The notes beneath the pieces are model-generated. The model did no database searches and was not told where the DNA came from. It worked only from the letters and a program-made list of their open reading frames with translations. The translations under genes and the position numbers were made by a program. From Lichenibacterium ramalinae (lineage in GTDB: Bacteria > Pseudomonadota > Alphaproteobacteria > Rhizobiales > Beijerinckiaceae): a DNA stretch of 64,000 nt. The stretch covers positions 124,001-188,000 of the forward strand of contig NZ_QYBC01000011.1 in assembly GCF_004137085.1 (NCBI RefSeq), read 5' to 3'. Shown here one piece after another: positions 13,331-45,020 of this stretch; within the stretch, counting starts at the first letter, position 1; each line of letters begins with the position of its first letter.

Positions 13331-15787
13331 TCAGGCGGCCGCGAGACCCTGCAGGGTGGGGGCGGACAGTTCGAAGATCATGCGGCCGACGGGCTCGGGT
13401 CGGCCGAAATGATAGCCCTGCACCTGGTCGCAGCCCGCGGCCTGGAGCTGGGCGAATTGTTCGGGCGTCTCGACGCCCTCGGCCGTCGTCGTCATGCCGA
13501 GGCTCGCCCCCAGCGCCGCGATGGAGCGCACGATCTTGATGCAATCCGGCCGCGTCGACATCTCGCGCACGAAGGACTGGTCGATCTTGATCTTGTCGAA
13601 GGGGAAGCGGCGCAGGTAGCTCAACGACGAATAGCCGGTGCCGAAATCGTCCATGGCGATGCGGATGCCGAAGCTGCGCAGCTCGTGCAGGGCCGCGAGC
13701 GAGCCGTCGCTGTCGCTCAGCAGCACGCTTTCGGTGATCTCGAGTTCGAGCCGCGTCGGCTTCAGGCCGGAGCGCAGCAGCGCGTCCTTGACGGTGCCGA
13801 CGAGGTCCCGCGAGCGGAACTGGGCCGGCGACAGGTTGACCGCCACCGACAGGTCCCGCGGCCAGCGCGCCGCCTGCGCGCAGGCTTCGCCCAGCACCCA
13901 GGCGCCGATCTCCCCGATGAGGCCGATCTCCTCGGCGACCGGGATGAAGACGGCGGGCGACACGAGGCCCCGCACCGGGTGGCGCCAACGCAGCAACGCC
14001 TCGAAACCCACGATGGAGATGGCGCGCGCGCAGACGAGCGGCTGGAAGAACACCTCGAACTCGCCGTTGGTCAGCGCCAGGCTGAGGTCGATCTCGAGGG
14101 CGCGGCGCGACTGGCGGGCCGCGTCCATGTCGGGCTCGAAGACCAGCGCCTGGTTCTTGCCGCGCAGCTTGGCCTGGTAGAGCGCGAGGTCGGCGTTCTT
14201 CATGAGTTCGTCGCCGCTCGCCCCGTCGCCCGGCGCGCTAGCGACGCCGATGCTGGCCGTGACGAAGAGCACGAGCCCGTCGATGTCGTAGCGCTCGCCG
14301 AGGATGTGCAGCAGCCTGTCGGGCAGGGCCTTGCCGCTCGGCCCGGACTCGCCGCGGAGCTGCAGGATGGCGAACTCGTCGCCGCCAAGCCGCGCCACGA
14401 TATCGCCCTCCCGCACCGCATGGCCGAGCCGTCGGCCGACCTCGCGCAGGAGCGCGTCGCCCACATGGTGGCCGAAGCTGTCGTTGATGTTCTTGAACCC
14501 GTCTAGGTCGAGGCAGATGACCGTGAAGGAGGTTCCGCCGGTTTCGGCCATGGCCATGGCGGCGTCGAGCTGTTCGCCGAAGAAGAAGCGGTTGACGAGG
14601 CCGGTGAGCCCGTCGTGATGGGCGAGGTAGGTGATCTGCGCCTCGTCGCGGCGCCGCTGGGTGATGTCCTCGTAGGTGGCGACCCAGCCGCCGTCCGGCA
14701 TGGGCTGGTGGGACACCGAGACGATGCGGTGCTCGTCGTCGTCCTGGACGAAGCCCGCCGCGATGCCGCGCGCCTGGAGCTGGCGGTGGCGGGCATGCAG
14801 CTTCGACAGGTTCGGGTCCCGGCTCCGCGCGATGAGGTCGGAGAACAGGATGCCGGGCACCGGCGTCAGGGCCAGCGCGAAGAGGTCGGAGAAGCGCTGG
14901 TTGCACACGACCAGCCGCTCGCCGGCGTCCACCATGCAGAGCGCCTGGGACATGTTGTTGAGGGCCGCGTCGAACCGCGCGTTCTGGATGCCGATCTCGC
15001 GGTCGCGGCGCTGCAGGACCTCGTTGCGCTGCTGCAGCTCGGCATTGACCGTGCTGACCTCGCCGTTGGCGCGCTCCAGCCCGTCGGACGCGCGGCGGAG
15101 GTCCCGGGCCAGCGTGTTCAGCCCGTCCCGGGCCCGCAGGAGCTGGCGGTTGTGCCAGCCGACGGCCAGGAGCAGGGCCGTGCCGAAGGTGAAGAGCCCC
15201 GCCACGACGGCGGAAAAGATCCAGAACAGCCGCACGAGCTCGCGCTGGTCCTCGGCGACCTTCTCGCTGCCGTAGCGGTTGGCCGAAGCCGCGAGCGCCA
15301 CGAGGCGGGCGTCGAGCGGCTCCATGACGGCGAGGGCGGCCCGGCCGACGCCGGGCTTGTCGATCCGGTCGATCATCGGCTGCAGCCGCGTCACCGCGAT
15401 GGCGAGGTCCCGCACCGTGGCCTCGTCGTCGGGGTCGAGCATCGTGAAGGCGTGGAACTCGCCCTGCGCCATGACGGACACGCGGTTCACCAACACGTCG
15501 TAGCGCAGCCCGACCTCGTCGGCATCGACGCCCGAGCCCGGCACCGCGGCGGAAGCGATGCGCTCCTCGAGGCGCCCGAACTCCCCGTTGGCCTGGCTGG
15601 CCAGCCAGCAGATGTTGTAGCGAGACACCTGCTTCAGCGCGTCCTGGCGCTGGGAGATCAACGACGACACCAGACCGGCAGCCGCCAGCAGGACGCACAT
15701 GGCGCCGAAGAAGACGAACTTCCCGGTCCTGATCGACCAAACGTCACGCCGGCGCGGCACGCTGAGGTCGAGGGTCGCTCCTGACAT
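13331..15787 (-). CDS. Membrane-bound GGDEF-EAL c-di-GMP enzyme with PAS domain
   Basis: 818 residues. Two membrane segments (about 25-45 and 190-215) bracket a periplasmic region of about 145 residues, a likely sensor. A short coiled coil leads to a PAS fold (about 270-385), then GGDEF (motif near residue 467) and EAL (near 595). Both catalytic sites look intact: RLGGDEFAI with an RxxD inhibitory site REGD five residues before it, and FEALLRWRHP, ELEITES, DDFGTGYSSLSY, KIKIDQSF in the EAL part. So it may both make and degrade c-di-GMP, with product inhibition possible. It lies just downstream of the pterin gene at 15806 on the same strand, with an 18-bp gap. Confidence 0.93.
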   Translation of the reverse strand: MSGATLDLSVPRRRDVWSIRTGKFVFFGAMCVLLAAAGLVSSLISQRQDALKQVSRYNICWLASQANGEFGRLEERIASAAVPGSGVDADEVGLRYDVLVNRVSVMAQGEFHAFTMLDPDDEATVRDLAIAVTRLQPMIDRIDKPGVGRAALAVMEPLDARLVALAASANRYGSEKVAEDQRELVRLFWIFSAVVAGLFTFGTALLLAVGWHNRQLLRARDGLNTLARDLRRASDGLERANGEVSTVNAELQQRNEVLQRRDREIGIQNARFDAALNNMSQALCMVDAGERLVVCNQRFSDLFALALTPVPGILFSDLIARSRDPNLSKLHARHRQLQARGIAAGFVQDDDEHRIVSVSHQPMPDGGWVATYEDITQRRRDEAQITYLAHHDGLTGLVNRFFFGEQLDAAMAMAETGGTSFTVICLDLDGFKNINDSFGHHVGDALLREVGRRLGHAVREGDIVARLGGDEFAILQLRGESGPSGKALPDRLLHILGERYDIDGLVLFVTASIGVASAPGDGASGDELMKNADLALYQAKLRGKNQALVFEPDMDAARQSRRALEIDLSLALTNGEFEVFFQPLVCARAISIVGFEALLRWRHPVRGLVSPAVFIPVAEEIGLIGEIGAWVLGEACAQAARWPRDLSVAVNLSPAQFRSRDLVGTVKDALLRSGLKPTRLELEITESVLLSDSDGSLAALHELRSFGIRIAMDDFGTGYSSLSYLRRFPFDKIKIDQSFVREMSTRPDCIKIVRSIAALGASLGMTTTAEGVETPEQFAQLQAAGCDQVQGYHFGRPEPVGRMIFELSAPTLQGLAAA

Positions 15788-42081: not shown

Positions 42082-42333
42082 GAGCGTCTTCGGCCCGGCC
42101 GCCTCGCGCCGGGCCGCGACGAGGCTCGCCTGCAGCGCCGGCCGTTCTTCGACCTATTGGGTTCAATTCATCGGTGGCACGGCATCGCAATGGTCCATGC
42201 CCAGGATTTCATCAATTTATCATAAGTTGTCGATGGTTTTTACAATCGCGTAACGTGTTCTTCAGACGTAGGTCGTTAGCCTCGCTGTCGCGAGGGGCCG
42301 CGGCCCCGTCGTCGGAAGCGGGGCGCGATCAGC
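42082..42333. other. Intergenic region upstream of the light/c-di-GMP operon
   Basis: The first part is GC-rich. From about 42150 to 42290 it becomes clearly AT-richer, with runs such as TTTATCATAAG and GGTTTTTACAATCG. This is the likely promoter region of the gene at 42334, but no single -35/-10 pair is convincing. No gene seen. Confidence 0.4.
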
Positions 42334-44097
42334 ATGCACGGGGTGATACCGGTCCTGGGCGATGGCGAGGTCCTGCATGGTGCCGGGCCCGGCGGCGTCG
42401 CCGCCGCCAGCCTGCCCGACGCCGCCGCGCTGTCGGCCTATGTCGAGTCGTTGCGCCACGGGCTGATCCTGGTGGGGCAGGACGGCCGCGTGGCGCTGTG
42501 CTCGCGGGAAGCCCACCGCCTCCTCGGCATCGCGGTCGGGATACGGGTGGTGGGTCGCCCGGTGCTCAGGCTGCTGGGTCCGCCCGCCGGCGGGCGGGAC
42601 GACCGCCGCCGTTTGGCCGCCCACCTTCGCCATGCGTTGCGCGGGCGCGAACCCGTCTCCTTCGACGCGGCACTCGGCCCGATGCCGGTCTCGCTCGACC
42701 TGTCGCCCCTGCCCGACGGCGGCTGGTCGGTGGCGATCGAGGAGGCGGCGAGCCGCGCCGCAGCGCGCCGCGCCGCGGCCGGCGGCTCCGAAGACACGCT
42801 GACGGGCCTCGCCAACCGGGCCGCCTTCGGCCGGCGCCTCGAGGAGGCCCATGCCGGCCTGTCCCGCACCGGCACGCCCTTCGCCGTGCTGGCGATCGAC
42901 CTCGACCGGTTCAAGCACGTCAACGACACGCTCGGCCACGAACTCGGCGATGCCGTGCTGCGGGTGGTGGCGCAGCGCCTCCGCGCCGTGGTGCGGGACG
43001 GGGACTGCGCGGCGCGGCTGGGGGGCGACGAGTTCGCCGTGCTGCAGGTCGGCGTCGCGGATGCGGGCGAGGCCGAAGTGCTGGCGCGGCGCATCGTCGA
43101 CCTGCTGGGGCGCGCCTATGTCGTGCAGGGCCACCTCGTGGCCATCGGGGCCAGCGTCGGCATCAGCCTCGCCGGCCCGGACGCCGTGCCGCCCGAGCAC
43201 CTGCTGCGCCATGCCGATCTCGCGCTCTACCGGGCCAAGGCCGACGGGCGCGACACGTTCCGCTTCTTCGAGCCCGTCATGGACGAGCGCCTGCGGGCGC
43301 GGCGGGAACTCGAGCTCGACCTGCGCAAGGCGCTGGCGCTGCGCCAGTTCGAGCTGCACTTCCAGCCCCAGATGAACCTGTCGACCGACAGGCTGGTGGG
43401 CTGTGAGGCGCTGATCCGCTGGCGCCACCCGACGCGGGGCATGGTGTCGCCGGCCGAGTTCATCCCCCTCGCCGAGGAGACGGGGCTCATCGTGCCGATC
43501 GGCGAATGGGTGGTGAGGACTGCCTGCCGGGAAGCCGTGCTCTGGCCCGAAAGCCTGTCGGTGGCGGTGAACCTGTCGCCGGCGCAGTTCAAGAGCCGCA
43601 AGCTCGTCGAGGTCGTGGCGTCGGCCCTGTCGAGTTCCGGCCTGGCGCCGCGGCGGCTGGAGCTCGAGATCACCGAAGGCGTGCTGCTGCAGGAGAACGA
43701 GGCCAACCTGGCAACGCTGCACGCGCTGCGCGACCTCGGCCTGCGCATCTCCATGGACGACTTCGGCACCGGCTATTCGTCCCTCAACTACCTGCGCTCG
43801 TTCCCCTTCGACAAGATCAAGATCGACCGCTCCTTCGTGGCCGACATCTCCACCAAGCCCGACTGCGTCGCCATCATCCGGGCCATCGCGAGCCTCGGCC
43901 TCAGCTTCGGCATGACCACGGTGGCGGAGGGCGTCGAGACGGCGGACCAGATGCGCCGCATCCGCGACGAGGGCTGCACCGACGTCCAGGGCTACCTCAT
44001 CAGCCGCCCCGTGCCGGCTCCCGACATCCTGCGATTGCTCGACCGCCAGGGCGCCGCCGCCCACGTCCTCCAACCTGCCTCGGAAGCGCTCCGATGA
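42334..44097 (+). CDS. GGDEF-EAL c-di-GMP enzyme with N-terminal PAS-like domain, partner of BLUF protein
   Basis: 587-residue soluble protein. A PAS-like domain (about 35-130, SLRHGLILVGQDGRVALCS) precedes GGDEF (motif RLGGDEFAV near residue 230, inhibitory site RDGD just before it) and EAL (near 357; CEALIRWRHP, ELEITEG, DDFGTGYSSLNYL, KIKIDRSF). Both active sites appear complete, so it may be bifunctional. Its stop overlaps the start of the BLUF gene (ATGA). The pair recalls Rhodopseudomonas PapA/PapB, where a BLUF protein controls an EAL phosphodiesterase. Confidence 0.92.
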   Translation: MHGVIPVLGDGEVLHGAGPGGVAAASLPDAAALSAYVESLRHGLILVGQDGRVALCSREAHRLLGIAVGIRVVGRPVLRLLGPPAGGRDDRRRLAAHLRHALRGREPVSFDAALGPMPVSLDLSPLPDGGWSVAIEEAASRAAARRAAAGGSEDTLTGLANRAAFGRRLEEAHAGLSRTGTPFAVLAIDLDRFKHVNDTLGHELGDAVLRVVAQRLRAVVRDGDCAARLGGDEFAVLQVGVADAGEAEVLARRIVDLLGRAYVVQGHLVAIGASVGISLAGPDAVPPEHLLRHADLALYRAKADGRDTFRFFEPVMDERLRARRELELDLRKALALRQFELHFQPQMNLSTDRLVGCEALIRWRHPTRGMVSPAEFIPLAEETGLIVPIGEWVVRTACREAVLWPESLSVAVNLSPAQFKSRKLVEVVASALSSSGLAPRRLELEITEGVLLQENEANLATLHALRDLGLRISMDDFGTGYSSLNYLRSFPFDKIKIDRSFVADISTKPDCVAIIRAIASLGLSFGMTTVAEGVETADQMRRIRDEGCTDVQGYLISRPVPAPDILRLLDRQGAAAHVLQPASEALR

Positions 44098-45020
44098 ACG
44101 AACTCTACCGCCTGGTCTACACGAGCCGGAACCTGCTCGTGGGGGACGAGGACGCCCGCGTCTCCGCCGTGGCCGAGATCCTGGCGCGGTCCCAGGCCAA
44201 CAACGCCCGGGTGGGGGTGACGGGCGCGCTGCTGTTCAACGGCGGCTATTTCGCCCAGGTGCTGGAAGGCCCGCGCGTCGCCGTCGAAGCCACCTTCGAG
44301 CGGATCCAGCGCGATCCGCGCCACAGCGACGTGGCGGTGCTGCAATGCGAACCCGTGGAGGAGCGCGGCTTCCCGCACTGGTCGATGAGCTTCATCGGCC
44401 ATTCGCCGCGGGGCCGTGCCCTCTGGGCCGAGATCGCCGGGCGCACGGGTTTCGACCTCGGCCGCATCGACGGCGATGCCCTCTTCGCCACGCTCCACGC
44501 CATCGTGCTGGAGGAGGAGGGCGTCGAGCCGCAGCGCGGCGAGCCGGCCGCGATCGCGGCGCCGTGGCGCGGACCCGAGCGGCCCGAGCCGCGGCCGTCC
44601 GCACCGCGCGGCGCTTCGGATCGCGGCGATCCGGAGCGGGTGGAGGGGCTCGATGTCGCGCGGCTGCGCGCCGAACTCGGCGTGCTCGCCGAGCAGGTCG
44701 CGGCCGAACAGACAGGGGCGAGCGGCCCGGTGCTTGCCGCCCTCCCCGCCCCGCCGCCGGTGGCCGCCCCGGCCGTGGAGGACAAGGCCGTCGCGGTGCT
44801 GCGGGCGGCGCTCGATGCCGAGCGGGCCCGCACCACGGCGCTGCGCCGCGACCTCGACGAGGCCCGCATCGCGCTCGCCGTGGCGAGCGACCGCGGCGAG
44901 GCCCAGGCGCGCCGCGCCGAGATCTGGGCCGAGCGGGCCCGGGCCTTGGCGACGGCGCTGTGCCGCGAGCCCGAAGCGGCACAGGCCGAGCCCACGCTCC
45001 CGGTCCGCCGCAGCGCGTGA
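44094..45020 (+). CDS. BLUF-domain blue-light photoreceptor with C-terminal coiled coil
   Basis: 308 residues. The BLUF domain (about 1-100) keeps the flavin photocycle residues Tyr9 (LVYTSRN), Asn37 (NNARVGVTGALL) and Gln55 (FAQVLEG), plus Trp96 and Met98 (FPHWSMSFIG). A variable Pro/Arg/Glu-rich linker (about 140-190) leads to a helical, coiled-coil-like tail (about 190-295, VAVLRAALDAERARTTALRR) that could bind a partner. Start ATG 44094 overlaps the stop of the GGDEF-EAL gene, which is the obvious partner. Confidence 0.9.
   Translation: MNELYRLVYTSRNLLVGDEDARVSAVAEILARSQANNARVGVTGALLFNGGYFAQVLEGPRVAVEATFERIQRDPRHSDVAVLQCEPVEERGFPHWSMSFIGHSPRGRALWAEIAGRTGFDLGRIDGDALFATLHAIVLEEEGVEPQRGEPAAIAAPWRGPERPEPRPSAPRGASDRGDPERVEGLDVARLRAELGVLAEQVAAEQTGASGPVLAALPAPPPVAAPAVEDKAVAVLRAALDAERARTTALRRDLDEARIALAVASDRGEAQARRAEIWAERARALATALCREPEAAQAEPTLPVRRSA

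Follow-up and report, generated by a model that had tools for sequence, protein, structure and literature searches.

A BLUF photoreceptor gene overlapping a PAS-GGDEF-EAL gene in Lichenibacterium ramalinae: a probable blue-light-controlled c-di-GMP unit

Introduction

Does a BLUF protein encoded immediately after a c-di-GMP enzyme control that enzyme, and if so, which of its activities? The question is raised by two genes of Lichenibacterium ramalinae located in a stretch of 64,000 nucleotides of contig NZ_QYBC01000011.1 (hereafter the window), in which an earlier note had described a blue-light/c-di-GMP two-gene unit. In BLUF proteins, blue light switches a Tyr/Gln hydrogen-bond network, and there are stand-alone BLUFs, PixD and AppA for instance, whose partners are not enzymes. 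Short BLUFs represent 64% of BLUF proteins and Methylobacterium is rich in them; the passages of the same paper available to us do not mention partner genes (PMC4844311). We found no paper on BLUF/GGDEF-EAL gene pairs in the open-licence PMC literature, seen in part.

Results

The gene pair and its surroundings

The coordinates of the pair, 42334-45020, and the overlap of the BLUF start with the enzyme stop were found to be as the earlier note had given them, with an ATGA at the junction (Table 1). The gene located 5' of the pair encodes a periplasmic binding protein and the one located 3', on the opposite strand, adenylosuccinate lyase (both by Pfam), which limits the unit to two genes. The promoter-like match occurs once in the region, versus a mean of 0.0 in shuffled versions of that region. 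The source genome (5.8 Mb) belongs to the Lichenibacterium/Lichenifustis genus group, whose two genera are associated with lichens in the literature that we have seen in part. It contains one BLUF match, 29 EAL matches and one phytochrome PHY match; reaction-centre genes, sought in this genome, gave no match. The window also holds a second GGDEF-EAL match at 13331-14962 on the minus strand, 47% identical to the BLUF-linked enzyme, with one stop within the aligned region.

Table 1. Features of the gene pair, in positions of the window
Feature	Positions	Strand	Basis
Sigma-70-like promoter match TTATCA-18-TACAAT, 88 nt 5' of the enzyme start	42217..42246	+	Consensus match only
PAS-GGDEF-EAL protein, 587 aa	42334..44097	+	Open frame and Pfam
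PAS_4 match, residues 38-129	42445..42720	+	Pfam, weak (26 bits, cut-off 23.1)
GGDEF domain, residues 154-307	42793..43254	+	Pfam
I-site RDGD, residues 221-224	42994..43005	+	Sequence reading
GGDEF motif, residues 230-234	43021..43035	+	Sequence reading
EAL domain, residues 329-559	43318..44010	+	Pfam and signature residues, all checked ones present
GGAAG, possible ribosome-binding site of the BLUF gene within the enzyme 3' end	44082..44086	+	Inferred from the letters
ATGA, overlap of enzyme stop (TGA 44095-44097) and BLUF start (ATG 44094-44096)	44094..44097	+	Sequence reading
BLUF protein, 308 aa	44094..45020	+	Open frame and Pfam
BLUF domain, residues 4-98, with Tyr9, Asn37, Gln55, Trp96 and Met98	44103..44387	+	Pfam and alignment
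Helical cap, helices 105-118 and 127-141	44406..44516	+	AlphaFold, fold search, alignment
Variable linker, residues 143-225, one helix 188-208	44520..44768	+	Low-confidence AlphaFold, alignment
Conserved single C-terminal helix, residues 226-298, coiled-coil-like	44769..44987	+	AlphaFold, alignment

The enzyme and the sensor

In the first protein, Pfam recognized EAL (E=4e-75), GGDEF (E=1.8e-42) and PAS_4 (E=1.1e-5). All EAL signature residues that we checked are present (E of EAL, N of NLSP, E of EIT, DD, K of KID, E of AEG and Q of QGY, which we take to be the catalytic residues). Motif reading and Pfam agree with the earlier claim that the GGDEF and EAL sites are both intact, and so is the I-site; with both domains and their catalytic residues, the protein is a predicted GGDEF-EAL enzyme. 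Among GGDEF-EAL paralogues of this genome, the best is 58% identical to it (residues 147-570). The nearest BLUF-linked enzymes of sister genomes (L003, L004, L005, L007) reach 63-68% over longer stretches, and two more remote BLUF-linked ones (L006, L008) 53-55%.

BLUF is the sole Pfam match of the second protein (E=4.5e-29; 100.8 bits for a cut-off of 25). The four residues Tyr9, Asn37, Gln55 and Trp96 singled out earlier are indeed kept, Met98 is present also, and we observed that all five are invariant in 138 of 138 aligned BLUFs. These Tyr, Asn, Gln and Trp/Met positions are the photoactive and flavin-contact residues of BLUF domains. By its domain score and these residues, the protein is, at the sequence level, a BLUF photoreceptor (PF04940). 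An AlphaFold model (pLDDT 81, pTM 0.51, 58 alignment rows) has the BLUF fold with a two-helix cap, and a fold search with it gave PixD and BlrB among the first matches, helical cap included. In or beside this cap, residues 119, 121, 141 and 142 are conserved mainly in enzyme-linked BLUFs. Moreover, Glu69, Gln72, Asp121 and Glu142 are common to BLUFs that are enzyme-linked, fused or next to HD-GYP, whereas 19 unlinked BLUFs mostly have other residues there. Positions 69, 72, 121 and 142 are candidates for a contact surface and may count in favour of a sensor-enzyme unit, though common descent explains the sharing too.

Beyond the cap, the earlier reading of a long variable linker followed by a coiled-coil tail in place of an output domain stands: the linker varies and is modelled with low confidence, and the tail is one long helix of 73 residues with pLDDT mostly 91-97. 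In 49 tailed proteins this helix is conserved around ALxxERxRTTxLR and WAxRARxLA, and the linker is again variable. Lichenibacterium minor has two BLUFs (L021 and L022), one of them without tail.

Pairing with a c-di-GMP enzyme among relatives

An initial scan of genome contigs with a single protein as query gave no relative. From a profile scan of named genomes the best 80 of 328 relatives were kept, a sample which leans to close relatives. In 74 of these 80 best-matching loci, a GGDEF-EAL frame lies directly 5' of the BLUF gene on the same strand and ends between 135 nt before and 8 nt past the BLUF start; four of them (L038, L044, L070, L094) show this frame only in part. The others comprise three GGDEF-EAL-BLUF fusions, two loci with an HD-GYP gene instead, and one (L091) with neither partner, whose nearest checked long upstream frame is a glycosyl hydrolase. 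In L094, a plasmid record, the GGDEF-EAL partner is split into several frames by decay or sequencing error.

Within the genus group, five of six genomes have a match; in all five, the best BLUF adjoins a GGDEF-EAL frame, and two genomes carry two such pairs each. The six weaker BLUFs of G002, a Lichenifustis genome, have no adjoining GGDEF-EAL frame. Three remote BLUF genes of this genome (L010, L012, L016), without enzyme neighbour, are closely similar to one another. Some BLUF match was present in 146 of the 397 genomes of the order survey. Thirty loci were read, and 14 of them, the window included, are paired, whereas the remaining 16, more remote, are unpaired. Because the more remote BLUFs of this survey are mostly unpaired, we conclude from these sequences that the pairing belongs to one BLUF group and not to all BLUFs.

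The pairing is seen across Hyphomicrobiales, Sphingomonas and Skermanella relatives, and also on plasmids. Of four annotated plasmid records opened, two (Aureimonas, Sinorhizobium) place an EAL-family gene immediately 5' of BLUF; the two others (Comamonas, Sphingobium), whose BLUFs are more remote, have no EAL-family gene at this place.

In the Methylobacterium group, a tailed-BLUF profile (E 1e-30) matched 70 of 111 genomes, giving 85 rows. From these rows 80 stretches were fetched; the loci of G320, G223 and G201 had already been read, one row lies inside L271, and row G484:C46:9596 is left out of the census, as are L298 and one frame of L280, which have a coiled-coil match without a BLUF domain. 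Among the resulting 81 BLUF-domain frames, 75 (56 tailed, 19 short) follow directly on a GGDEF-EAL frame, with only the enzyme end readable and the remainder N in L230, L232, L266 and L038. Two more have HD-GYP upstream, two are fusions of BLUF, five PAS domains, GGDEF and EAL, and two (the second copy in L236, and L303) have no c-di-GMP enzyme partner. A remote further pair type was noticed in L271, L297, L299 and L302, where a 148-aa BLUF follows a different GGDEF-EAL frame with an identical spacing of 17 nt.

Chance pairing is rejected by the counts in named relatives and in Methylobacterium. It is likewise very improbable that the two genes are mere neighbours, adjacent without a functional link, since the pairing recurs in relatives from Hyphomicrobiales, Sphingomonas and Skermanella and on plasmids, with ATGA overlaps or short gaps, and since fusions exist.

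We also compared the tree distances of BLUFs and enzymes. For 107 pairs the correlation is r 0.55, and for 50 short pairs r 0.69, with 0 of 2000 permutations as high in both cases. The 57 tailed pairs give r 0.33 (89 of 2000 permutations as high) when two pairs with a swapped enzyme are included, and r 0.91 (0 of 2000) for the 55 pairs without them. Joint vertical descent alone could be sufficient for such a correlation. The proposal of a blue-light/c-di-GMP two-gene unit is supported, at the level of sequence, by the conserved adjacency, the fusions in both orders and the correlated trees.

Fusions and exchange of the enzyme

Five natural BLUF/GGDEF-EAL fusions were found, in both domain orders. 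L086, L087 and L104 (Sphingomonas) are single open frames GGDEF-EAL-BLUF (Pfam was run on L086 only); in an AlphaFold model of a Sphingomonas fusion (pLDDT 91, pTM 0.70), the individual domains are predicted with confidence. L300 and L301 (Methylobacterium group) are single proteins of ~1220 aa with an N-terminal BLUF, five PAS, GGDEF and EAL.

Other tailed BLUFs stand beside a different enzyme. In L072 and L073 the upstream gene is HD-GYP by Pfam, and these frames contain HD and HHE..DG.GYP motifs, the latter being the HD-GYP motif; L228 and L271 are the same units, with gaps of 32-33 nt. In L050 and L056 the partner is an enzyme of GAF-PAS-GGDEF-EAL type (Pfam run on L050). The last part of the L073 tail diverges and may carry an indel. 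The four BLUFs with an exchanged enzyme form one supported clade within the tailed group (SH-aLRT 99 in a quick tree), so that a tailed sensor changed its enzyme, each time for another c-di-GMP enzyme. HD-GYP genes are also close to three further GGDEF-EAL/BLUF pairs (after the pair in L224, ~0.8 kb before it in L272 and L273). Altogether, an HD-GYP gene lies within 4.5 kb of 5 of 58 tailed loci versus 0.25 expected by chance, as we roughly estimate from some three HD-GYP genes in a genome of 6 Mb. A BLUF/HD-GYP unit of two genes would be a novelty, but the direct pair comes from two genomes only.

On quick, unrooted trees, the tail label changes twice on the BLUF tree (137 rows) and three times on the enzyme tree (107 rows), which is consistent with one gain of the tail in the Methylobacterium/Lichenibacterium group and one loss in L021, plus the enzyme swap. 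Because the tail is kept where the enzyme is swapped, it is not tied to the window-type enzyme; this retention suggests that the tail self-associates or meets a third partner, and not that it is adapted to this enzyme. The idea of the tail as a dock for the enzyme's PAS domain is disfavoured, as the extension is kept in BLUFs beside HD-GYP.

One could then imagine that the pair is co-expressed for convenience, the BLUF signalling elsewhere through its helical tail and the enzyme being run by its PAS domain. Indeed, the enzyme has its own PAS sensor, and all four BLUFs with an exchanged enzyme keep a tail that is not fitted to one enzyme. We nevertheless consider this unlikely, in view of the five natural fusions with GGDEF-EAL, of exchange partners that are c-di-GMP enzymes every time, and of the short form without tail, which is still paired (38 of 85 paired BLUFs).

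Hydrolysis or synthesis

Both regions are readable in 81 partners (45 of 47 of tailed BLUFs, 36 of 38 of short ones); L044, L038, L070 and L094 were left out of the residue counts, their enzyme being hit by a contig end, an N run or broken frames. All 81 have the checked EAL residues intact. An intact GGDEF is seen in 76 (44/45 tailed, 32/36 short), and an intact I-site in 41/45 tailed and 22/36 short. Light could control synthesis, with GGDEF as the regulated output and EAL trimming the product, given how often GGDEF and the tailed-type I-site persist. However, GGDEF is degraded in five partners and EAL in none, the two enzymes of the Lichenibacterium minor pairs both read GGDAF at the GGDEF site, and the HD-GYP replacements are hydrolases by family, so that we regard control of synthesis as quite improbable. 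Because EAL is always intact and HD-GYP substitutes for it, hydrolysis looks like the conserved, guarded output. The earlier suggestion of a potentially bifunctional enzyme holds in that both sites are intact and synthesis is possible in the window enzyme; selection, for its part, appears to guard hydrolysis most.

Discussion

Probably, the gene pair is a blue-light-controlled c-di-GMP unit in which the BLUF protein sets the turnover of its partner in a direct complex. The layout, the fusions and the enzyme exchange all favour the view that sensor and enzyme are directly linked and that hydrolysis of c-di-GMP is the output; for the photocycle, the complex, the direction of the light effect and the role of the tail, we infer from known BLUF proteins. 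By this analogy, the BLUF protein would bind FAD and blue light would switch the Tyr9/Gln55 hydrogen-bond network. The change would run through the beta-sheet and the helical cap into the enzyme held in the complex and alter its c-di-GMP turnover, light most likely raising phosphodiesterase activity. The GGDEF domain would either add an activity of its own or bind GTP and serve regulation. The C-terminal helix would multimerise the sensor, perhaps the complex, or bind a further factor.

If this is true, light commonly acts on c-di-GMP through a two-gene module in Methylobacterium and in lichen-associated and other Alphaproteobacteria, a module which we did not find described for these bacteria in the accessible portions of the open-licence PMC literature. 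A sensor that stays in place while its enzyme is replaced would illustrate how unrelated phosphodiesterase folds can come under the control of a BLUF. Since the tail is kept across PAS-GGDEF-EAL, GAF-PAS-GGDEF-EAL and HD-GYP partners, we tentatively put forward, as a possibility that we hold to be less than even, that the tailed BLUF places c-di-GMP hydrolysis under light control as a portable regulator, able to drive such unrelated folds, its tail kept and its enzymes swapped, and that the HD-GYP pair is the first BLUF/HD-GYP light unit. Structural studies and optogenetics could make direct use of the natural fusions, which are already single chains.

Among known systems, BlrB (2byc) is the closest to the window BLUF by sequence (E=9.5e-20), and BlrB (2byc) and PixD (1x0p, 8i98) are the closest in fold, helical cap included (TM to target about 0.8); their chains of about 140 residues are without the long C-terminal helix. 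PixD is not known to have a c-di-GMP enzyme as its partner. BlrP1 of Klebsiella and BluF/YcgF of E. coli share with the pair a BLUF coupled to EAL and a homologous BLUF domain (3gfx, E=1.5e-10). In BlrP1, BLUF precedes EAL, and the Sphingomonas fusions, with BLUF C-terminal, have the reverse order. Unlike these single-chain proteins, of which BlrP1 is described as a light-activated phosphodiesterase in the parts of PMC8846402 that we saw, the window has two frames with an ATGA overlap and the enzyme upstream, fused in relatives only. The BLUF-GGDEF/EAL protein of Methylomicrobium alcaliphilum has the three shared domains but, according to an excerpt of PMC4844311, in one chain.

The system to which the pair had been likened, PapB-PapA, also has a separate BLUF encoded with a c-di-GMP phosphodiesterase partner. 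A review describes the two proteins as a heterotetramer, the light-induced changes of PapB being passed on to PapA via the C-terminal helices (PMC8846402, seen in part). In the same extracts PapB is described as short, whereas the window BLUF has a linker and the 73-residue helix, and PapA is termed a solo EAL protein, whereas the window partner is PAS-GGDEF-EAL with an intact GGDEF. The resemblance thus holds in layout, and the difference named along with it, GGDEF plus EAL versus solo EAL, is real.
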